Program-made: the position numbers and the translations under genes
Shown here: positions 24,895 to 47,800 of the stretch, one piece after another
Layout: each line of letters begins with the position of its first letter
Position numbering within the stretch: position 1 is the stretch's first letter
DNA from: a virus
Length of the DNA stretch: 64,000 nt
Virus record (IMG/VR): IMGVR_UViG_3300035694_000001
Coordinates: 1-64,000 of that record
Strand: one strand, 5' to 3'
The notes under the pieces: generated by a model
Seen by the model: only the letters and a program-made list of their open reading frames with translations
Database searches by the model: none
What the model was told of the DNA's origin: nothing

Positions 24895-27800
24895 GTGGCT
24901 ACACGGCTCTACTTCAATAACACAGCGGCACCCTACACTCCAACCACTATCCGGGGCACGTGGAGCCTCACTACGGGTGCAGTTACTAAGTTGCTGGGTG
25001 CAGCTCACGATAGCGGGGCGCCTGCCACAGTCGCTGTTGCTGAAACTAATAGTTCCACTACATATAACGTGCTGTGGGGGCGATGGATTTCCGCGCCGGC
25101 AGCAGTTAGCGGAAATCTCTCTGGTGTTGTCTCTTGGGCTGTTGGTGTTAAAGAGTCAAGCCTTAGTGCGCTCGATGTCCTCCGCGTGCACATCTATGTT
25201 ACTACGGGAAGTAGTGATACTCCGCGCGGCACACTGCTAGCTAACTACACCGATACTGTCAGATTCACCACCACCGCTGCCGGTATTTCATCGCTTGACG
25301 TAGCGATCAGCACAGTAGCTGTAACGGCCGGAGACCGCGTTGTTGTCGAGATCGGCTACGAAGCACAAAATAGCTCGACATCTTCATTTACCGGAACGAT
25401 GAACTACGGCGGTAACCAGTTCTTCCGGGACTTGGTTGCCGCCCAATCTTCTGGCAGCCATGGTACCGATCCCACCACAGGCTTTGGTTGGGTGCAGTTT
25501 TCTGACCCTAATAGCGTGCTGGTCGCGGCGCCGACGTCGAGCGCCAACAAGTGCCCTAACCCAGCGGCGAAGACCTACCAGGACTTCTGGTCAACCGTAT
25601 CGGGAACCACCGTCACGCAGCCCGCCGAGACTGGATTCAGTCGTACCACGGGACTGCATATTGTCATGGGCACGGTTGCGTCGCCGACCGATCCGAACAT
25701 CCAACCAGGAATAGCGCCTGCCTCTGCCGGGGAAACCTGGTCATCATACGTTGAGATCAAAGGATCACTCACCTCTCCTGACACCACAACGTGCTGGCTT
25801 AACTTCTTAGACGCTAGAGGCAACTTTCTTACGCCTAACCCGTCGCAGACTATTACGCCGACAAATACTGCGCAGACGGTTATTTTCAACGGATATACAG
25901 CTCCGACTAACGCAGCATCAGTCGGAATATCTGTTGAAGGCACCATGTCAACAGGTGACACGATGGACGTCACTTGTGTTCGATACGATATTGCCGCTTC
26001 CCTCTCGGCATACGCAGATGGCGACAGCACGGGATGGTCTTGGGATAATGCTCTAACTGACGGCGATTCACCGTCACGCCAAAACAACACACCTACCAGT
26101 ATTGCAGGAGATACTTCAAGCGGGCAGCGTTTTAGCGGCCCTACTGGTGCTAACGCTATCGGTGTTGTCACTACAGGAGACACGCCAGCTGCGCACCGCG
26201 CGGCGGGGCCGTCCGGGCTCGGCCCTAATGTGGCGCCTGCCGGCGACTCCCCAGCCGCGCAGCGCAGCGCGGGGCCTGACGGTGGTCTAGCTCTAGGGGT
26301 ATCCCTGACGGATAGCCCCTCAGCGGCTCGCCAGGCCGGCCCTGACGGACTCATGGCCATCGGGGTATCCCTGACGGACAGCCCCTCGGCGCAGCGCTTC
26401 TCTGGGCCCGATGGCGCGGCCGGCGTAGGTGTCACGTTCGGACCTGACACCCCAGGTGCCCAGCGCAGCGGCGGCCCCGATGGCACGGCTGCCATCGATC
26501 TCAGCAGCACGGCTCCGCCCTCGGGGCTGCGCAGTGCTGGGCCTAACGGATCCCTGGCCTTGGGCGTCACCACCACGGACACGCCCTCAGCGGGCCGGTA
26601 CGCCGGCCCTGTGGGCTCCGTATTCGCTGATGTGGGCGGAAGCGTCAGCCTCACCGATACCCCCTCGGCGCGGCGTGTTGCAGGACCGGACGGCGCGCTG
26701 GTGCTGAGCATCGTGCTCGTAGGGGATTCACCCAGCGCCGCACGGTTTGCGGGCCCTGACGGCGTGTTGGCCATTGGTTTCGTACTTACTGACACCCCCT
26801 CGGCCGAGCGCGATGGCGGCCCAGACGGCGTGGTTATCGCGATTCTCAGTGACTCGCCGAGCGGGCTGCGCTTCTATGGGCCTGACGGAGCGATGGGGAT
26901 AGATCTCCCCATTACGGCGGATACACCCTCGGCGCCCCGTTGCGCCGGCCCTGTCGGGCTTGTGGGTATCGGCATCGGGGCCGATGTCATTGCGGGCACG
27001 GCCGCCCCTTCAGGATCTCGCTATGGTGGCCCGCTGGGTGAAGTACTGCTGGCGATGTTGCCCAGCCGACCGCCTTATACCCCCTCGGCACCCACAGTGG
27101 CGCCCAGTTACACACTATGGGTGGCCGATACTTGTACTGGCCGGATGCTGTGGGAGCTGCCGGCGGAAACGCTCAGCTGGAATAACAAGCTCAATGATGT
27201 GGGCACGATAACAACATCACTCTCTGTTGAGAGCATCTGGGATGCCCTTTCTGACCAGGACGAGCGAGATCCTCGGATCATGCTTAGAGAGATCCTCAGC
27301 GGTCCTTGGCGATTCTCGTTGGTGCTGAAGTGGGGCAATAACGCAGTTTGGGCAGGGCCTTATCTCACGATGTCTCGGCCGACCCCTCAACATGTTGTCC
27401 TCAACGGTGCCGAGATAGCTAAGATTTTCTCTAAGCGCGCACTTATTAAACCAGGGGCTATCTCAGCAGTAGATCCGACTGCTGATACGTCGTTTGGTCC
27501 GGGCGCAACGAAATCACATGTGGCGGCAGCCTTGGTGAGTCAGGCGCTAACCGGCACAGGTAATAGTCTACCTATCACTGTCACAGATCCGGGCGGCTCA
27601 GGCACCGATGCCCGAGTTTACTACGGATATGACTTGGCATACTACTGGGATCAATTAGTGGCATTAATGGCCGAGGTAGACGGCCCAGAAATCCGGTTTG
27701 ATCCGCAAATTACGCCAGGCTCTGACGGAGATTACGTGTCCTGGGTAATGCAGGTCGGCACCCCTTATCTTGGACGCGATGCAACAACGTGGGTGTTTGA

Positions 27801-28272
27801 TTCGGATGTTACGTCAATTGTGGGCATGGATGCGGATAGTTCTTCCATGGCTATGGGAGTGTGGTCTTCAGGCACAGGCCAGTCTCGGGATAAACTCATC
27901 GCTCATTCAACAGACACAAGTCTGTTGAATCTTGGGTGGCCGATGCTGGAATCTGTAGATAACACGCATACATCAGAAATATGGTACCCGATCCTAGCGG
28001 CGCACAATGCCGGGGCACTTGATGCTTACAAGCAGCCTGTGGTGTCTTTTAACGTAATGGTGGCTGCTGATTCCGACCCCATGGCCGGCACGTACCGGGT
28101 AGGACAGGATTTCTCAGTAGACGTGCACGGTGACCCCATTATCCCAGATGGGTTCTATACCCGCCGTATCGCGGCTATCAACGGCACAGAGAAACCCTGG
28201 GTGACTATCACAGATGTTGGCCCTGTCCCGTTGGCGGCTATCGGTCCACTCACAACTTTAGGCGGTCCGTAG
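24895..28272 (+). CDS. Large minor tail protein with 14-unit GPxG repeat region
   Basis: A 1125-residue protein starting at GTG 24895. Residues 1-220 form a beta domain, and 225-380 a second, CBM-like module. About 390-725 is a run of 14 short repeats, each built around (D)(T/S)PSAxR, a short spacer and GPDG. The C-terminal 400 residues (from APSYTLWVADT) match the conserved actinophage minor tail domain (tail-tip hub related). It is a structural tail component; the repeat region is probably an extended stalk. Confidence 0.85.
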   Translation: MATRLYFNNTAAPYTPTTIRGTWSLTTGAVTKLLGAAHDSGAPATVAVAETNSSTTYNVLWGRWISAPAAVSGNLSGVVSWAVGVKESSLSALDVLRVHIYVTTGSSDTPRGTLLANYTDTVRFTTTAAGISSLDVAISTVAVTAGDRVVVEIGYEAQNSSTSSFTGTMNYGGNQFFRDLVAAQSSGSHGTDPTTGFGWVQFSDPNSVLVAAPTSSANKCPNPAAKTYQDFWSTVSGTTVTQPAETGFSRTTGLHIVMGTVASPTDPNIQPGIAPASAGETWSSYVEIKGSLTSPDTTTCWLNFLDARGNFLTPNPSQTITPTNTAQTVIFNGYTAPTNAASVGISVEGTMSTGDTMDVTCVRYDIAASLSAYADGDSTGWSWDNALTDGDSPSRQNNTPTSIAGDTSSGQRFSGPTGANAIGVVTTGDTPAAHRAAGPSGLGPNVAPAGDSPAAQRSAGPDGGLALGVSLTDSPSAARQAGPDGLMAIGVSLTDSPSAQRFSGPDGAAGVGVTFGPDTPGAQRSGGPDGTAAIDLSSTAPPSGLRSAGPNGSLALGVTTTDTPSAGRYAGPVGSVFADVGGSVSLTDTPSARRVAGPDGALVLSIVLVGDSPSAARFAGPDGVLAIGFVLTDTPSAERDGGPDGVVIAILSDSPSGLRFYGPDGAMGIDLPITADTPSAPRCAGPVGLVGIGIGADVIAGTAAPSGSRYGGPLGEVLLAMLPSRPPYTPSAPTVAPSYTLWVADTCTGRMLWELPAETLSWNNKLNDVGTITTSLSVESIWDALSDQDERDPRIMLREILSGPWRFSLVLKWGNNAVWAGPYLTMSRPTPQHVVLNGAEIAKIFSKRALIKPGAISAVDPTADTSFGPGATKSHVAAALVSQALTGTGNSLPITVTDPGGSGTDARVYYGYDLAYYWDQLVALMAEVDGPEIRFDPQITPGSDGDYVSWVMQVGTPYLGRDATTWVFDSDVTSIVGMDADSSSMAMGVWSSGTGQSRDKLIAHSTDTSLLNLGWPMLESVDNTHTSEIWYPILAAHNAGALDAYKQPVVSFNVMVAADSDPMAGTYRVGQDFSVDVHGDPIIPDGFYTRRIAAINGTEKPWVTITDVGPVPLAAIGPLTTLGGP
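26100..27040 (+). repeat. Tandem coding repeats in the minor tail gene
   Basis: Fourteen units of roughly 20-28 codons, each with a GPxG core (GPTG, GPSG, GPDG, GPNG, GPVG or GPLG) and a DSPSA/DTPSA box. Two consecutive units share the near-identical GVSLTDSPSA segment, a sign of recent duplication. The region is visibly more GC-rich than its flanks. Confidence 0.85.
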
Positions 28273-29085: not shown

Positions 29086-29340
29086 GTGGGGTTAAGCACT
29101 CTCCTTAATTTTTTCAGTAAGTACGGGCTAGCTGGGGTATTCATCGCGATACTGCTCTTTGCGGTGGGTGTGATGTACCTGCAGCTTATGCAGAATCTTA
29201 AAGATGCTAATGCCCGCGCGGATAGATTCGAGGCTGAGGTCAAGTCACTCAACGATGAGATACAAAAATACCTTGCACTTGGCATCGCTGCACGAACGGT
29301 CATGGGTGAGGCAGCTAACGAGATGAGAAAACTTCAATGA
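29086..29340 (+). CDS. Small membrane protein with coiled coil
   Basis: An 84-residue protein starting at GTG 29086: one transmembrane segment (AGVFIAILLFAVGVMYLQL) then a charged helix. It is the first of four tightly overlapping small genes before the endolysin, so it may be a holin or holin-like lysis protein. The r1t-type holin lies elsewhere (36838). Confidence 0.65.
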   Translation: MGLSTLLNFFSKYGLAGVFIAILLFAVGVMYLQLMQNLKDANARADRFEAEVKSLNDEIQKYLALGIAARTVMGEAANEMRKLQ

Positions 29341-29513
29341 CTATGCCGCCACAAGGAGAGTACAACGCAGGAATCCATGCTCAAGAGCAGACTATTGAGA
29401 TATCGCTGCAGACTCGGCGGAAACTAGCTGAGTTGATGGATCAAATAGACGAAACTGTCGCAGCTCTGCGCCTTGAGGTGGAGCAGGCGAAAATCCGTAG
29501 GGGTGAGATATGA
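29337..29513 (+). CDS. Small helical protein in the lysis cassette
   Basis: A 58-residue soluble, highly charged helix (QTRRKLAELMDQIDETVAAL). Start and stop both overlap neighbours by four bases (ATGA). Tight coupling to two membrane proteins suggests a complex. Function unknown. Confidence 0.6.
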   Translation: MTMPPQGEYNAGIHAQEQTIEISLQTRRKLAELMDQIDETVAALRLEVEQAKIRRGEI

Positions 29514-29986
29514 CAGTGCCACAAGATCCGCATATTGCCCAGACTCCTGCCGCGATGAGTGATGTAGACAATGCTCTTGCTGCACGTATGGAGAGTCTGC
29601 GGAAAACGCTTGCCGAGTTGACACCTGAGGTCACTAAGCTGCAAAACGAGCAGAAGTCAACCTGGGCTTGGCTCAAAAGCGGGGCGGGGTTCATTGCCTT
29701 CGATATCATCATCACAGTAGCCGGAATCATTTACGGGTACAACTTGCACACAATCGAGCACCAGAATGATGCGCTTCTTAGCCAGTTGCAGGCTCAGCAG
29801 GCCCGGCTAGGAACGAGCATTCATGAGACGTGCAACCTCTACGGCACGTTCATCAATTTCTACAGTCCTGCCGCCGCTGCCAGATTCGCCAGTGGCCCAG
29901 CTCGGTACGACCAGCTCTATATCGTGCTGCAGCACAGCGCGGACAACTTGCAGTGCGGTATCAAGCACGTAGTTCCTGGGACGTGA
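29510..29986 (+). CDS. Membrane protein with cytoplasmic coiled coil
   Basis: A 158-residue protein: helical N-terminus (about 20-48), one transmembrane segment (GAGFIAFDIIITVAGIIYGY), then a helix-rich part with two cysteines outside or inside. ATGA overlap upstream. Candidate holin partner or antiholin by position, unproven. Confidence 0.65.
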   Translation: MTVPQDPHIAQTPAAMSDVDNALAARMESLRKTLAELTPEVTKLQNEQKSTWAWLKSGAGFIAFDIIITVAGIIYGYNLHTIEHQNDALLSQLQAQQARLGTSIHETCNLYGTFINFYSPAAAARFASGPARYDQLYIVLQHSADNLQCGIKHVVPGT

Positions 29987-29993
29987 GGCGGTC

Positions 29994-30071
29994 ATGATTA
30001 AGAAGCTCATCAAATGGGTTGCCGAGTGGAAAATCATCAAGAAGCTGTTTGGGGGCTCTAAGGAGCAGTAA
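29994..30071 (+). CDS. 25-residue cationic amphipathic peptide
   Basis: The sequence opens MIKKLIKWVAEWKIIKKLF and ends in a short polar tail; it carries seven Lys and two Trp in a helical spacing. ATG 29994 lies after GAGGCGG, and its TAA shares an A with the endolysin ATG (TAATG). Length and composition resemble membrane-disrupting peptides. Its position directly before the endolysin makes a lysis function plausible; none is known. Confidence 0.55.
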   Translation: MIKKLIKWVAEWKIIKKLFGGSKEQ

Positions 30072-31120
30072 TGATTATTTTCGGGGCTGATGTGCACCCG
30101 GTTTTTCAGGCAGGTTTGCCTATCGAGGCCCTCCCCTCGGTGGGCATAGAATTTTTAAGTGTCAAAGTATCTCAGGGCACTAGCTCGGTGTACCTAGATC
30201 AGGGTGCTCTGGGGTTTCTCCAACGAGGAGTGGCGGCCGGCATGCTGTGCGTCGGCTACCACTGGTTAGAGCCTGGCAACGAGGGTGCTCAGGCCTCCGT
30301 ATTCGCTGCTGCACTTCAGCGAGCGGGTAACCTGCCCGGTGTGAGTGATGTAGAGGACATCACTCCGGCTCGTGTTCCTACTTTGAATATCAGCGGTATT
30401 CGGGCTTTCCACAATGCTTGTACGCAGCGAGGCGCGCGAGTGCCGTTCATGTACCTGCCTCATTGGTACTGGCAAGCCATTGGATCTCCTGATTTAACCG
30501 GGCTGCCCCAGCTTTGGGCATCGAGCTATCCGACCAACCGGACTGGTACCCCTCAGCAGCTCTACCCGCTGGTGGATGACGCGCGCTGGGCATCCTATGG
30601 CGGGCAGTCTGTTGGCCCCCTGCAGTTCGCCAGCAGTGGCATTCTGGCTGGCTATCAGCCTGTGGATGTCAACGCCTACCAAGGCAGTCGAGCACAGCTC
30701 GCTAAGGCCCTCGGCCTCCACACACGATATAAGGAGCGGCCTGAGATGATCAAGTTACCGAGCACGTCAACTCCTGCTGACCCGAAAACATCGCCACTAG
30801 CCTGGCCACAACGGAACTTCGATGTTCCATGGAATGTGGTAGGCGGCTGGGAAGGCGACGCGGCCTTCAGCTTCGGTGTTCAGGACTGGAATAGTGGCCG
30901 CTCAGATGCAGTACGTGGGCTCCTACTGCTGGCCAGCTGGATGATGCCGGGCGGCAAACTTATTCCAGTAGATCCTATTTTCACTGTTTCCGGCGGAGGC
31001 CAGGCACTCACCGCGCACACCCTCACCAAGGAGTACCCGGCGCCGGCTGGCTGCGTCGGAGTCACGCTGAATTACGCGGCTCCGAATGAGGCCTATGTCG
31101 CTATCGGGCGTTCAGGCTAG
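30071..31120 (+). CDS. Endolysin, GH25 lysozyme-like
   Basis: A 349-residue protein. Residues 1-215 follow the GH25 muramidase barrel: GADVHP (first catalytic-side Asp), FLSVKVSQGTS, VGYHWLEPG, SDVEDI near residue 94-97 (acid/base region), the LWASSYP strand and a final VDVNAY. It would cut the glycan backbone of peptidoglycan. The rest (about 235-349) is a beta-rich domain likely to bind the wall. No signal peptide, so it needs a holin. Confidence 0.85.
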   Translation: MIIFGADVHPVFQAGLPIEALPSVGIEFLSVKVSQGTSSVYLDQGALGFLQRGVAAGMLCVGYHWLEPGNEGAQASVFAAALQRAGNLPGVSDVEDITPARVPTLNISGIRAFHNACTQRGARVPFMYLPHWYWQAIGSPDLTGLPQLWASSYPTNRTGTPQQLYPLVDDARWASYGGQSVGPLQFASSGILAGYQPVDVNAYQGSRAQLAKALGLHTRYKERPEMIKLPSTSTPADPKTSPLAWPQRNFDVPWNVVGGWEGDAAFSFGVQDWNSGRSDAVRGLLLLASWMMPGGKLIPVDPIFTVSGGGQALTAHTLTKEYPAPAGCVGVTLNYAAPNEAYVAIGRSG

Positions 31121-31126
31121 GCCGGC

Positions 31127-31525
31127 GTGCGGCTCCCTCGGCTGCTGCACAACGTGCTGCTCACGGGGCACATCATCGCAGCGGCCGGCTGGTTTGCGTT
31201 GGTAGCGGTGCAGCTCGTGGCGCCGAGGGACGATGTCAGGATCTACCTGGTCCCCTCGGCCGCTACAGCGTTGGCTACTGGGCTTGTGCTCGCTCTGGCC
31301 AGTCAGATAGGTCTAGGCCGGCACTGGTGGGTGCTGGCCAAGCTCCTGGGCTCTGCGCTCGTGGGCGGTCTTGGCGTGGCCTCGCTGGCGGGATACCAGA
31401 TCCCAGATGCCGCCTATGGCGGGCTGCTGGGCCTCTGGGCCCTCGTGTGGCTCTCCGTCGCGCGGCCCTGGGGCAAGACCCCTTATGGACGGGAGATGGC
31501 GCGTCGTGGCCGGCATGGAAGGTAG
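31127..31525 (+). CDS. Four-pass membrane protein after the endolysin
   Basis: A 132-residue, strongly hydrophobic protein starting at GTG 31127. Four transmembrane segments (LLTGHIIAAAGWFALVAVQL first). The layout resembles DUF2269-like bacterial membrane proteins. It could be a lysis accessory or a lysogenic-conversion gene. It ends the rightward virion/lysis block; 31526-31700 downstream holds nothing I can support. Confidence 0.65.
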   Translation: MRLPRLLHNVLLTGHIIAAAGWFALVAVQLVAPRDDVRIYLVPSAATALATGLVLALASQIGLGRHWWVLAKLLGSALVGGLGVASLAGYQIPDAAYGGLLGLWALVWLSVARPWGKTPYGREMARRGRHGR

Positions 31526-32074: not shown

Positions 32075-32391
32075 TTAGGGTTCTTCTCTCCTGGTGGTCG
32101 TAATTGGTTACTTACCTCGGATAAAATGTGCCGCGCGGTCTGCCGTCCCTCGGCAGTGAGTTGGTAGTACGAGCGAACGGGGCGCCCGGCTGTGGCCGGA
32201 TCGATAGCTTCTCGCTCACAAACTACCCAACCGTTTTCTTCGAGCCTTCGCAACAAGGGGTAGAGAACCCCAGTGTGTTGACCGACAGTTCGCATTAACT
32301 CAAATCCGTACCGTGGCGCACAGTCGTTGTCCAGCAGAGCCCGCAGCACTTTGAGGGTCTGCAGGCTCAGCCGGGCATCTTTGTCGATCAT
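32071..32391 (-). CDS. PadR-family transcription regulator 1
   Basis: A 106-residue protein: LSLQTLKVLRALLDN, then YGFELMRTVGQHTGVLYPLLRRLEENGWV is the winged-helix DNA-binding domain of PadR. The RPVRSYYQLTAEGRQTA wing and last helix follow. It lacks the long C-terminal dimer domain of larger PadR proteins. Likely a repressor. It overlaps the WhiB stop upstream. A second, diverged PadR lies at 37149. Confidence 0.85.
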   Translation of the reverse strand: MIDKDARLSLQTLKVLRALLDNDCAPRYGFELMRTVGQHTGVLYPLLRRLEENGWVVCEREAIDPATAGRPVRSYYQLTAEGRQTARHILSEVSNQLRPPGEKNPK

Positions 32392-32633
32392 GAGGCTAGC
32401 TGCTTCAACGCACGGCGCTCAGCCTCGGTCGTGCCTCCGGCGATCCCGGATGTGAGACCCGTGCTGCAGGCCCAGCTCAGGCACTCGGCCTTCACAGGGC
32501 ACCGCCGGCAGATAGCTTTAGCCCGCTGCAGCTGTCCTGCCTCGGCCGCAGTGAACACGTCGCCTAGCGGGAAGAAGATCTCAGGGTCTGCGTCACGGCA
32601 CGCGGCGCGGTGCCGCCAATCCTTCGTTACCAT
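32388..32633 (-). CDS. WhiB-like regulator from an internal start
   Basis: ATG 32633, preceded by AGAAGGTG, would yield an 81-residue protein of the usual WhiB length, with Cys at positions 12, 42, 45 and 51. This is the same frame as the GIY-YIG::WhiB fusion, so one gene may make two proteins. Phage WhiB proteins (such as TM4 WhiB) can repress host whiB genes and block superinfection; that is known for the family, not shown here. Confidence 0.6.
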   Translation of the reverse strand: MVTKDWRHRAACRDADPEIFFPLGDVFTAAEAGQLQRAKAICRRCPVKAECLSWACSTGLTSGIAGGTTEAERRALKQLAS

Positions 32634-32909
32634 CGTGTTCACCTTCTTTCGGGCTCGACATATTGGACAGTTCTTGGCTTTCCCTCGCTGCTTGAAGGCC
32701 CGTTCCCGATAGCGGTCACCCTCCCAGGTTCGAGCGAGCTTCCACGTGATGCCCTCGGCCGCCACCACTTCCAGCAGCCTGGCCCCTCGACCCTTCGCGT
32801 GTGCGGCTAGCCGGGCTTCGAGATTTGTAGTAAATCCGAGATAATGCTTGGCATGCTTGTAAGGTTTACTAAAATGCAATAAATAAATGATGCCGGTTAA
32901 ATTACGCAT
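32388..32909 (-). CDS. GIY-YIG nuclease fused in frame to WhiB
   Basis: A 173-residue frame from ATG 32909. Residues 1-80 match a small GIY-YIG (URI) domain: GIIYLLHF, HYLGFTTNLEARLAAHAKG and ITWKLARTWEGDRYRERAFK. Residues 93-173 match WhiB: cysteines spaced C-X29-C-X2-C-X5-C and the GIAGGTTEAER turn. WhiB proteins carry a 4Fe-4S cluster and bind the principal sigma factor. There is no stop between the domains, but an internal ATG (32633) with AGAAGG could give WhiB alone. Confidence 0.8.
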   Translation of the reverse strand: MRNLTGIIYLLHFSKPYKHAKHYLGFTTNLEARLAAHAKGRGARLLEVVAAEGITWKLARTWEGDRYRERAFKQRGKAKNCPICRARKKVNTMVTKDWRHRAACRDADPEIFFPLGDVFTAAEAGQLQRAKAICRRCPVKAECLSWACSTGLTSGIAGGTTEAERRALKQLAS

Positions 32910-32911
32910 TT

Positions 32912-33376
32912 CTAAACCCCATTTATCCGCGCGAATGGCCCCCATGTAGCTAAAACAAACACATCATAGGCTCTCGCCGCTATTACAGGATCTTTGAACA
33001 CCCCAATGTGAACATTTTTACCGTTCACTTTAGCTTGAGACTTCCAACCCATGCGGAACGGATATACACCACGATATGTGTTTGTATGGTTACGGTTGAC
33101 ACTATTTTGACTTCGCGAAGCACATCTAAGATTATGCCGCTGGTTATTTAAGCCGTCGCCATCTTCATGGTCTACTTCTTCTGGTGGTTCGCCCATTAAC
33201 TGTCGGTGCATGTAGAGTGTTTTACGACGCCCGTCTTCTTGAGTTATCCATCGTGCGGCATACGCGCCGTGTCCGCAGCTGCGTGGTACGTACGTCCAAC
33301 GGTGCCGGGATAGTTCAGGTAAATCTTCTTCGTCTACCTGCACCACATGACCTGCTGATATGGCTAATTCAGTCAT
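32912..33376 (-). CDS. HNH endonuclease with AP2-type DNA-binding domain
   Basis: A 154-residue protein starting at ATG 33376 after GAGGACGAG; upstream in-frame codons extend into the promoter region and are unlikely. The order is an N-terminal beta region (HVVQVDEEDLPELSRHRW), the HNH core MHRQLMGEPPEEVDHEDGDGLNNQRHNLR, then AP2-like YRGVYPFRMGWKSQAKVNGK and IGVFKDPVIAARAYD. This is the standard phage AP2/HNH homing nuclease. It heads the WhiB/PadR operon. Confidence 0.85.
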   Translation of the reverse strand: MTELAISAGHVVQVDEEDLPELSRHRWTYVPRSCGHGAYAARWITQEDGRRKTLYMHRQLMGEPPEEVDHEDGDGLNNQRHNLRCASRSQNSVNRNHTNTYRGVYPFRMGWKSQAKVNGKNVHIGVFKDPVIAARAYDVFVLATWGPFARINGV

Positions 33377-33451: not shown

Positions 33452-34465
33452 GTGCCTGCGACCCCCCGCCGTCACGTGGAAAATCTGATTGTGCCGGGTA
33501 TGCGCCTCGGCCGCCGGCCGCATGACCCTGACCGGCCAACCTTGAAGTTATCTCGGCTCTTGACCGGTGTGACGCCGGCACACCCAGCCACGGTGGATCA
33601 CTTCAGCCTCGTACCAGTGCAGAGCTGGGGTGTGTTGGGTAATGATCAGTACGGAGATTGCGGGCCCGCTGATGTCGTGCACGATCGGATGCTAGTTTCC
33701 AAGTACTTGGGGAACGTCAGTTCTACCCTTGGCACGGCTGACGCCCTCGACCTCTACAAGCGGTCCGGCAACCCGAATTTTCCCGTCGATGATAACGGCG
33801 TGGTCATGGCCGACATGCTCAGCGAGGTCCACACAACCGGCGTCGGACCCCCTGATGCGAACAAGAACCGCACGCGGTGCGTCGCCTACGCCTCGGTCAA
33901 CGTGGCTGACCTCGATGAGGTCAGAGCCGCTATCGCTATCTTCGGCTCAGTCTCCACGGGCGCCGACCTCTCCCAGGCTCAGCAGGCTCAGACCACGGCC
34001 GGCGGCCCCTGGGACTATGACGGCAGCTCCCCTGATTGGGGCGGCCATGCCTTCCTCTCGGGCTTCTACACGGGCGACACGACGGCTGGCCGCCCGGACG
34101 TCGGAGGTTTGACGTGGGGATTCCCCATCGGCATCACTGACAAATTCTGGGCACAGCAGGCTCAGGAAGCTTGGGTAGTGATCTGGCCAGAGCATCTGGC
34201 AAATAAGTCTTTCCTCACCGGAGTTGACCAGACTTTCCTGGCCGCCGACTACAAAGACCTCACCGGCCGAGAGCTGCCCGTGAGCCCGATCCCTCTGCCT
34301 ACTCCTGGCCCGGCGCCTGCTGCCGCCGTGGTCACCTCGGCTGAGCTAGCAGCCAACCAGCAGCTCGCCACCATGGCACATGCCTTCATCCGGTACGCAC
34401 ACAGCGGCCTCGCCGGGCAGATGGCTGATGAGCTGGCTCGGTGGCTTGGCGCCTGGGGGCTGTGA
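33452..34465 (+). CDS. Papain-like cysteine-peptidase-type protein
   Basis: A 337-residue protein starting at GTG 33452 after AAGGAGG. The core has GNDQYGDCGPAD with Cys near residue 70 and GGHAFLSGFY with His 199, the two residues and context expected of a papain-type (C39-like) active site. A Pro-rich linker (about 275-295) leads to a C-terminal helix. Similar proteins occur in actinophage lysis or tail regions. Possibly a peptidoglycan peptidase or a host-directed protease. Confidence 0.7.
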   Translation: MPATPRRHVENLIVPGMRLGRRPHDPDRPTLKLSRLLTGVTPAHPATVDHFSLVPVQSWGVLGNDQYGDCGPADVVHDRMLVSKYLGNVSSTLGTADALDLYKRSGNPNFPVDDNGVVMADMLSEVHTTGVGPPDANKNRTRCVAYASVNVADLDEVRAAIAIFGSVSTGADLSQAQQAQTTAGGPWDYDGSSPDWGGHAFLSGFYTGDTTAGRPDVGGLTWGFPIGITDKFWAQQAQEAWVVIWPEHLANKSFLTGVDQTFLAADYKDLTGRELPVSPIPLPTPGPAPAAAVVTSAELAANQQLATMAHAFIRYAHSGLAGQMADELARWLGAWGL

Positions 34466-44816: not shown

Positions 44817-45707
44817 ATGACCACCGATCTCACGGCGTTGCAGCTCACCCGGCAAAAGGTCAATACCGGCATCTGGATTTGTGCTGCCCTAACCATGACT
44901 GCTTCGGCGATTTCGGGCGTTACGGCTTTTGTCTACCTGCAAAAAGACGGCTGGGGCATTGCTTCTGGGGCCATGACTGCCCTTGCGGTTGATGTCGCGC
45001 TGTGGGTGGCCTTGACCGGTGACCGGTTGATGGAAGCTATCGGCATCCCTTCTGGCCCCTGGGCTCGGGTAGTGCGCTGGGGCACGGCCGCGATGTCGGT
45101 CACCCTCAACATCACAGCGGCGGCCGTGGCCAACATCCCGGTTACGCTCAAAGTCCCACTGATCATCCTGCACGCCTTCGTACCGCTGATCATGGTGTCG
45201 CTGGCCGAGCTGCGCGGCGAGTATGCACAGCAGCTGGCGCCCGTCGAACGCGCGGCTCTCGCAGAGATAGAGGCCCAGGAGCGAGCTGCTGATACCCCGA
45301 TCGTTGCGCCATCCGAGCGAATCTCGGCTACTAGCGACCAGCTCGAAGCTCTGGGGCCGGCACTCGAAAGATCACAACGTCCGTTGGATCTAGGGCCCGC
45401 AGTTCCAACGGTAACGCCGTTTGCTTATAGGTCTGAGCACGTCGACAACCAATTTGCTCGCCCACGCTCTGACCAGCGGAAACACACTCGATCTTCTCGA
45501 GGACAACGCCCTGACCTGCGGGTTTCCACGCCGACTGGCCAGCCGGCTGTGCGCCGCTCGAACGTGCGAGATGCCGCGTTCGCCTGGCTCGACGCTCACC
45601 ACAGCCCCGACACCACCGCACGGAAGCTCGCCGAGGCCCTCAACGGATCCGAACACACCTGCAAAAAGTTGCTCGGCGAATGGCGCCGGCAGAAGGCGGC
45701 ATCATGA
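44817..45707 (+). CDS. DUF2637-like membrane protein (plasmid-transfer type)
   Basis: A 296-residue protein: four transmembrane segments in the first 135 residues (including GIWICAALTMTASAISGVTA), a charged middle, and a C-terminal helix-turn-helix-like region (TTARKLAEALNGSEHTCKKLL). DUF2637 proteins occur on Streptomyces plasmids and integrative elements next to tra genes. It overlaps the FtsK/TraB-type gene by four bases, so the two are made together. Confidence 0.75.
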   Translation: MTTDLTALQLTRQKVNTGIWICAALTMTASAISGVTAFVYLQKDGWGIASGAMTALAVDVALWVALTGDRLMEAIGIPSGPWARVVRWGTAAMSVTLNITAAAVANIPVTLKVPLIILHAFVPLIMVSLAELRGEYAQQLAPVERAALAEIEAQERAADTPIVAPSERISATSDQLEALGPALERSQRPLDLGPAVPTVTPFAYRSEHVDNQFARPRSDQRKHTRSSRGQRPDLRVSTPTGQPAVRRSNVRDAAFAWLDAHHSPDTTARKLAEALNGSEHTCKKLLGEWRRQKAAS

Positions 45708-47800
45708 CAATCACAGATATTCGACAGTTTCCTGAGGATCGTGCCCCCTGGTGGCGACGGTGGTTTGACCGCCAGCAGCCAGAAGCTCAGTACGGCGACG
45801 TAGTGAGCACTGAGGTAATCAAATGGGAAGGCTCGCCGGAGGAAGAGCCGAAGGGTTGGGCCTGGGTAGAAAAGCACGCGGTAAGCCTGCCGGACAAGCG
45901 GGCGGTCAAAGCCAAGCTCAAGCACGCGGCATCCAAAATGCCTGGCATCCTCGCCAAGCACATACTCGTTACGATTCCTAGAGGTATGTGGGCTGAGGTG
46001 GTTCAACCCACCTGGCGCGGCGCCGGCAAGTGCATGACGGCATATCACCACTGGGTTACCGCGATCCATCTCGATGAAGCGCAGAAAGTAGCTGAAGGAC
46101 CCCTCAAAGCTCGCACGTTGAAAGATCGACACAGCAGCCATGGGTACCGCATCTGGGCCTCGATCATCGCTGTGCTGTCGGCTGCCGGCGGCATGACGTA
46201 CCTCTACTACACCCAGCTCAACTACTTCTTTGCTGTCCTTATTGCCCTGGTTTGCATCCTCGATCTGATCGGCCGAGCCGGGCAGGAGAAGAAAGAAGAG
46301 TTTGTGCCGATCTACCGGGAGCCTCTCCGAGAGGGGATGCCCTACAAGCAGCTCACCGCGTCGATACAAAGCGCCTTCAACGAAATCATCGGGGTAGACG
46401 GCAACGGACACCCGTTGGTGCGAGTGGATGGCATCTGCTCATATGACTTCGATCGTGAAGAGTGGCGGCAGAATCTCTCCACTTTCCAAGAGATCAAAGA
46501 AGAGCATGTGCGGACACTGGAGCGGTCTATTGGCGCGGCACTTCGCTCGGTTCGCATCCTTGAAGTACCAGCCGTTGCCACTCGGCGGATTTTGAGCATC
46601 AAAAATGGGGATCCGTTCGTTGATGTTCCTGTGGCGCCTTGGCTACCAACCAAGTCGCAGAATATCGCAGATGGGCTTCTCCTTGGTAAGTCCCAGACTC
46701 CGATGCCGTACCGGGTGCATTTCGCCGGTGTGCATGTTGGTGTAGTCGGTGGCTCTGGTAGCGGTAAGAGCGAGGGCACTATTAGTGCGATTATCGAAGG
46801 AATACTCTCTTGCTATAATGCTGTGCCGGTTGGTATTGACCTTACTGAGGGGCCAATTTTCCCGATTTATGGTGACTGCATTCAGCGAGTCGCTTACACC
46901 CCGGAAGATGCGGACACACTTCTTGACTGGCTGCTTGCCGAGATCAAAGAACGTGCCAAGATTCTGGGCGATATCGCGCGCAGCAGTGACCCTAACGATA
47001 AGGGCCGCGAATGGAATGTTCACCTTGCTGCGAAGTACAACAAGCCCAGTGTCCATCTCATTGTGGACGAATCCCCACAGGCGATGAAATTTAATGGGCA
47101 GCCGAAGGGTACCATCAACCTTGCCGCTAAGCTGGAAGTAATCGCACGTACGGGCAGCAAGCATTGGGTGACCTTGGTTCTCGCCTCCCAGAAGACCGGC
47201 AAGTCCGATGCCGGCAGCACTGGTATTTCTTCACAGATCATGACTTGGCTCGTCGGCCCTTGCACCCAAGATGATGCTAATGAGATCTTCTCACCAGAGT
47301 TGCGGCGGGCCGGTTGGGCGCCGAACCTGCTTAAACCCGCCGTTCGGAACATCTCGAAGAATGATGCCGGGCGTGTTTATGTGAGCGCCGCTGGCTTTGG
47401 CCCTGACATTTGCATTAGCTGGACGCCTATGCCAGAACCAGAAATCAAACGTCGGCGAGACCAGCGGCTGATTGATGGGTTGCCTCGCATTACCAGCGGG
47501 GTTGGTTTCCCTGGGGACAGCAATACCGTAGAAGGCAAAGTAGTGCCGAATACCCTTTCAGCCTTGGCCGCCGCGCTCGATGATATTGAGCCCCCGGACG
47601 GCAAGCTGCCCAGCGCCATGGCTGCTGAATGGATCACTGAGCACAGCAATCAGGAAGTCGACGCCACGGAGCTGGCCAAGCAGCTGCGCGCCGAGCTGGG
47701 TGACCTCGCGCCGAGGGCCAAGAGCATGCGCAACAAGCTGCGAGGCAACTGCTCTTGCTACCTCGCAACCGACATCAACGACGCCATGGAGGCGCTATGA
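45704..47800 (+). CDS. FtsK/TraB-type DNA translocase
   Basis: A 698-residue protein from ATG 45704. Two transmembrane segments (near residues 150-190, RIWASIIAVLSAAGG and FFAVLIALVCILDLIG) anchor it. A long linker leads to the motor: Walker A GGSGSGKS (near 350), Walker B HLIVDES (near 450) and VLASQKTGKS as the sensor-like strand. The C-terminal part (about 630-698) may be a winged helix that reads DNA. Relatives pump double-stranded DNA between mycelial cells in Streptomyces conjugation. It is unlike the terminase. Confidence 0.85.
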   Translation: MTITDIRQFPEDRAPWWRRWFDRQQPEAQYGDVVSTEVIKWEGSPEEEPKGWAWVEKHAVSLPDKRAVKAKLKHAASKMPGILAKHILVTIPRGMWAEVVQPTWRGAGKCMTAYHHWVTAIHLDEAQKVAEGPLKARTLKDRHSSHGYRIWASIIAVLSAAGGMTYLYYTQLNYFFAVLIALVCILDLIGRAGQEKKEEFVPIYREPLREGMPYKQLTASIQSAFNEIIGVDGNGHPLVRVDGICSYDFDREEWRQNLSTFQEIKEEHVRTLERSIGAALRSVRILEVPAVATRRILSIKNGDPFVDVPVAPWLPTKSQNIADGLLLGKSQTPMPYRVHFAGVHVGVVGGSGSGKSEGTISAIIEGILSCYNAVPVGIDLTEGPIFPIYGDCIQRVAYTPEDADTLLDWLLAEIKERAKILGDIARSSDPNDKGREWNVHLAAKYNKPSVHLIVDESPQAMKFNGQPKGTINLAAKLEVIARTGSKHWVTLVLASQKTGKSDAGSTGISSQIMTWLVGPCTQDDANEIFSPELRRAGWAPNLLKPAVRNISKNDAGRVYVSAAGFGPDICISWTPMPEPEIKRRRDQRLIDGLPRITSGVGFPGDSNTVEGKVVPNTLSALAAALDDIEPPDGKLPSAMAAEWITEHSNQEVDATELAKQLRAELGDLAPRAKSMRNKLRGNCSCYLATDINDAMEAL

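Follow-up and report, generated by a model that had tools for sequence, protein, structure and literature searches.

A conserved Lys/Trp-rich micropeptide gene in front of a phage endolysin gene, and its possible role at the membrane surface during lysis

Does the very short open reading frame (ORF) directly in front of the endolysin gene in IMG/VR virus record IMGVR_UViG_3300035694_000001 encode a protein, and what might such a protein do in lysis? The DNA analysed here, called the window, is the whole stretch of 64,000 nucleotides from position 1 to 64,000 of this record. A sequence-only reading had described a 25-residue Lys/Trp-rich amphipathic helix, joined to the endolysin gene by a TAATG junction, that could make the membrane permeable, help to release the endolysin or simply couple translation. 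The ORF and its junction were borne out at 29994-30071 (+ strand), with an ATG start at 29994 and a TAA stop at 30069-30071. The encoded peptide, MIKKLIKWVAEWKIIKKLFGGSKEQ, has 25 amino acids and a net charge of +5, and Lys and Trp together account for 36% of its residues; of the 239 ORFs that start with ATG and have 20-40 codons, counted over all six frames of the window, no other reaches a Lys plus Trp content of 36%. Its stop overlaps the endolysin ATG (30071) by one base. The initiation signals of the endolysin gene (30060-30073, +) lie inside the peptide ORF and consist of the Shine-Dalgarno sequence AAGGAG (30060-30065), 5 nucleotides before the endolysin start, and the TAATG overlap. 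At the other end (29981-29993, +), the stop codon TGA (29984-29986) of a preceding 158-residue protein with one predicted transmembrane (TM) helix is followed by 7 nucleotides and the peptide ATG, with a weak Shine-Dalgarno sequence (GAGG) 5 nucleotides 5' of that ATG. Read-through fusion to the 158-residue protein was ruled out, as the frames differ (TGA 29984-29986, ATG 29994, offset 10). The ORF is correctly placed and constitutes a real gene of 25 codons within the lysis cassette.

The comparison set consisted of the window peptide and three diverged relatives from viral metagenome contigs: L007 (1728-1808, 26 residues, MISKITKWFAEWKLIKKLLGKDKNKG), L025 (9792-9896, or from 9795, 33-34 residues, (M)MKKLIKWVAEWKLIKTALRKLRGDGNENTRSNS) and L028 (2426-2527, 33 residues, GTG start, MKKLIKWFTKWKLIKTLLGKLHRSSDGNTSSDS). 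Two further contigs were identical or near-identical to the window across the peptide region. All four phages share the same gene order: an 84-residue one-TM protein, a 58-residue protein, the 158-residue one-TM protein, the peptide, the endolysin and a 132-residue multi-TM protein. In all four carriers the peptide thus fills one slot, with a one-TM protein immediately ahead of it and the endolysin behind. The 7-nucleotide spacing upstream of the peptide is also present in L007, but without a Shine-Dalgarno sequence, and the peptide starts of L025 and L028 are preceded by AAGGGGA and AGGGGA, respectively.

The four peptides have an invariant core, K-x2-KW-x3-WK-x-IK, with seven invariant positions (K4, K7, W8, W12, K13, I15 and K16). 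In all six pairs, the ratio of non-synonymous to synonymous differences (pN/pS) of residues 2-19 was 0.17-0.30, with pS near saturation (0.68-1.10); the neighbouring genes gave a comparable range (0.10-0.50). When the same substitutions were placed at random, a stop codon was gained in 61-84% of trials. Random placement also left fewer identical residues in five of the six pairs (P = 0.002-0.014; for L007/L028, P = 0.13), although these pairwise P values are not independent because the pairs share sequences. The sequence-only reading would have been undermined by frequent frameshifts of this frame in relatives; none of the four diverged sequences had one, and the peptide was kept in all three relatives. 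The conserved slot, the invariant core, the low pN/pS and the intact frames therefore indicate that the peptide gene is under purifying selection. The same-slot homologues, the pN/pS values and the random-placement test rule out a chance ORF.

The peptide itself had no sequence match in Pfam, PHROGs or the PDB, searches in which very short queries limit sensitivity. Among named phages, distant blastn found no match for the region, and neither the two one-TM proteins of the cassette nor the peptide had a match, the sensitivity for the latter being low with so short a query. No homologue of the peptide was found in Saccharomonospora phage PIS 136, which has a similar endolysin, and bacterial and archaeal genomes contained neither a match to the peptide pattern nor a relative of the cassette. 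One pattern match, in contig L024, was taken as chance; its frame is broken by a stop close upstream and the sequence is AT-rich. Annotation of phage genomes can easily pass over genes as short as about 25 codons. The peptide gene is such an overlooked micro-gene, which suggests that similar peptides may be hidden in other lysis cassettes.

Could the ORF serve only as a coupling cistron, translated to make the endolysin start accessible or to bring ribosomes to it, while its product is irrelevant? In the window, the TAATG overlap and the AAGGAG within the ORF fit this explanation, and so does L007, where 4 nucleotides separate the peptide ORF from the lysin ATG. However, the amino acid sequence is conserved despite near-saturation of the synonymous sites, and the distance from the end of the peptide ORF to the lysin ATG is about 125 nucleotides in L025 and about 92 nucleotides in L028, where the core is still conserved. 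A coupling leader in all members of the set was accordingly rejected, the short distance being present in the window and L007 and absent from L025 and L028. Pure coupling is improbable as an explanation of the gene. In the window phage, translation of peptide and endolysin is probably coupled as a secondary role; because the L025 and L028 peptides end far from the lysin ATG and yet stay conserved, the comparison indicates that coupling can be an added role and does not explain why the protein sequence is conserved. The coupling proposed by the sequence-only reading is therefore plausible in the window but does not account for the conservation of the protein.

If the product matters, does it work with the endolysin? 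The window endolysin (30071-31120, +) has a GH25-type catalytic domain (PF01183, E = 1e-10), matches the endolysin family phrog_3084 (2e-37) and carries a C-terminal domain common to L004, L007 and L021. The lysin behind the peptide is of the GH25 type in the window, Rv2525c-like in L007 (PF08924) and amidase-type in L025 and L028. The amidase label of the last two is our reading of the sequence together with a weak amidase PHROG, with no Pfam match; both lysins match endolysin PHROGs, and the amidase-type lysin of L004 matches the same families. The lysin of L021 is 58% identical to that of L007 over nearly its full length, yet L021 has no peptide: the lysin comes immediately after a one-TM protein (25% identical to that of the window), and no peptide homologue was found throughout the 115-kb record. 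In our sample, the peptide was found only together with a closely related block of 84-, 58- and 158-residue proteins. The peptide thus appears to go with this block and not with the enzyme, a correlation based on four carriers and a single lineage that lacks the peptide.

A role as chaperone or export factor, in which the peptide would bind the endolysin and help to deliver it, would have a precedent in Gp1 of phage Ms6, a chaperone-like lysis protein whose target is the first 60 residues of LysA (PMC6116114). Gp1 is, like the peptide, a small protein of an actinophage lysis cassette whose gene lies near that of the endolysin; the likeness drawn here is one of description. It is, however, specific to the LysA N-terminus, whereas the peptide occurs with lysins whose N-terminal domains are of three unrelated kinds; on this comparison of domains, a dedication of this type was rejected. 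Since the N-terminus of the lysin differs completely among the peptide carriers and an L007-like lysin goes without the peptide in L021, we give a Gp1-like role little credence. Retention of the peptide across different lysin types speaks against the earlier suggestion that the peptide assists endolysin release by direct partnership.

Some features of the enzymes deserve mention in their own right. Endolysin modules have been swapped, with GH25, Rv2525c-like and amidase-type catalytic domains joined to a common C-terminal domain (window, L004, L007 and L021). This C-terminal domain of the window endolysin gave no alignment with the lysins of L025 and L028. Between the peptide and the amidase-type lysin, L025 (9859-10062) and L028 (2478-2666) have a putative small overlapping ORF, and both copies share the motifs ATPDPE and TSNSL..GSM.

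The shape of the predicted helix bears on a third question, whether the peptide could act on membranes alone. With a four-member alignment, AlphaFold2 modelled the L025 homologue as one helix (residues 3-25), with block means of the predicted local distance difference test (pLDDT) of 81 for residues 1-10 and 88 for residues 11-20. The maximum 19-residue hydropathy of the four peptides is 0.24-0.40, far below that of a TM helix, and a holin, which would have at least one such helix, was ruled out. Net charge is +5 to +6 across the four. The best 18-residue hydrophobic moment of the window peptide, 0.28, does not exceed that of shuffled sequences (P = 0.65), and a single uniform amphipathic helix was thus ruled out. 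Residues 1-12 alone are strongly amphipathic (moment 0.69, P = 0.003), as they are in all four peptides (0.61-0.70, P = 0.003-0.006); the segments were picked after viewing the sequence, so that these P values are descriptive. The hydrophobic face lies at about 70 degrees in residues 1-12 and at about 285-305 degrees from residue 12 on, a turn of about 130 degrees near W12 that is conserved in all four peptides. Amphipathicity of the second half is significant in L025 only. The amphipathic helix of the sequence-only reading therefore holds only in part: a helix is predicted for the L025 homologue, and amphipathicity applies to residues 1-12 but not over 18 residues. The helix seems to fit a membrane-surface or partner-binding role better than that of a classical lytic peptide.

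Disruptins, such as that of phage phiKT, are cationic antimicrobial peptides encoded by phages (Holt et al. 2022, cited through PMC12819732). A self-sufficient peptide of this or a general antimicrobial kind, permeabilising the host envelope alone, would suit a lysis-cassette helix that is short, cationic and rich in Lys and Trp. As short cationic helical peptides with a proposed action in lysis, disruptins resemble the peptide in charge and by its lysis-cassette position, but they breach the Gram-negative outer membrane. Here the host is predicted to be actinobacterial, with no cutinase-type (PF01083) match in the 95.8-kb record, which may be incomplete, and so no hint of a mycolate outer membrane; in addition, the helix is not amphipathic over its whole length. 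Disruptins are also about twice as long as the Lys/Trp peptide. We consider a self-sufficient lytic peptide rather unlikely.

The reading that we favour, with about an even chance of being right, is that of an accessory protein at the membrane surface, belonging to an actinophage lysis cassette of several proteins and acting with the holin-like membrane proteins. A role at the membrane with these neighbours, and not with the enzyme, is suggested because the peptide is kept when the endolysin is swapped. The peptide would be made together with the preceding one-TM protein and would sit on the membrane surface as a short cationic helix with an amphipathic N-terminal half, its Lys residues and two Trp residues being suited to the inner face of the cytoplasmic membrane. 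It would work with the conserved holin-like proteins of 84, 158 and 132 residues, promoting or timing permeabilisation, and this would let whichever endolysin the phage carries reach the wall. Translation, membrane binding and the partnership with holin-like proteins are steps that we infer. Several points weigh against the accessory role. The neighbours are called holin-like solely from their position and hydropathy, no family model identifies them, and AlphaFold2 gave a poor model of the 158-residue protein (mean pLDDT 49.7). Only four diverged peptide sequences are known, and the longer helix is not uniformly amphipathic, unlike textbook lytic peptides. Furthermore, the L020/L021 lineage, with a related one-TM protein and lysin, does without the peptide, which is thus not needed in general.

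Small genes with all kinds of function can be placed among the late genes of phages, and the lysis role is only inferred; the peptide might be unrelated to lysis, for instance a host-takeover peptide placed in the cassette by chance. Its identical position between the one-TM protein and the endolysin in four carriers with conserved gene order makes this very unlikely. Clear purifying selection and tracking of the holin-like block, not of the endolysin, mark the peptide as a testable part of a little-understood actinophage lysis machinery.

A more specific arrangement can be drawn by analogy with holin T of phage T4, in which a short cytoplasmic N-terminal amphipathic helix is needed for pore opening (PMC12162936). 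The helix is part of the holin in T4, whereas here it is encoded by a separate gene, beside a one-TM protein with a charge bias suggesting an N-in/C-out topology and two invariant Cys residues; the likeness drawn here is one of arrangement. A split holin system, in which the one-TM holin-like protein is complemented by a separately encoded cationic helix supplying the pore-opening amphipathic segment that is fused in holin T, is conceivable but doubtful, and we hold it to be a long shot. If true, it would give actinophages a micropeptide trigger of membrane opening usable with any endolysin.

What is known of the neighbours? The 158-residue protein (29510-29986, +) is the closest conserved neighbour of the peptide; its predicted TM helix spans residues 58-76, the two invariant Cys residues lie in its C-terminal part, and it had no family match. 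It is a holin-like candidate, as is the 84-residue protein (29086-29340, +), which has an N-terminal TM helix and a charged coiled-coil-like C-terminus and gave only weak coiled-coil-type matches to Rz-like families (E about 0.002). Between them lies a gene for a soluble 58-residue protein (29337-29513, +) with a conserved SLQTR[RK]KLAELMDQIDETV motif. Directly 3' of the endolysin gene, a multi-TM protein of 132 residues (31127-31525, +), with three helices over the threshold, is conserved in the four phages. The cassette passages of the accounts of Gordonia phages (PMC9671378) and F1 mycobacteriophages (PMC13056207) describe several small holin-like TM proteins around lysA, and some of these cassettes hold small non-TM proteins of unknown function, such as KappaFarmDelta gp21 and gp25 (PMC9671378, PMC13056207). 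The window cassette is similar to those described there in being multi-TM, with small holin-like proteins around the endolysin, but its two one-TM proteins match no named phage; no Lys/Trp micropeptide was met in these passages.

The terminase is 63% identical to that of Streptomyces phage Samy and the capsid about 52% identical to those of Rhodococcus and Mycobacterium phages. Because of these relatives, the phage is placed among actinobacterial phages and its host is predicted to be actinobacterial. The 95.8-kb record, which, as stated, may be incomplete, gave no match to a tyrosine integrase.

Several other observations were made in the window. Contig L010 differs from it at 42 of 7533 bases compared, all in a 185-base patch (32706-32890) inside a minus-strand ORF (32388-32945), which may reflect recombination or an assembly artefact. 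The ORF at 24895-28272 encodes a protein of 1125 residues with many DTPSA.R..GPDG-type repeats, which is also present in L025 (5775-7862). A 337-residue protein (33452-34465) matches phrog_19005 (unknown function) with an E value of 3e-24, and similar proteins are encoded 3' of the endolysin in L004 (2312-3310) and L021 (5480-6472). Finally, a 706-residue ORF (45680-47800) contains the P-loop-like motif GGSGSGKSEG and, by this motif, reads like a candidate FtsK/TraB-type ATPase.
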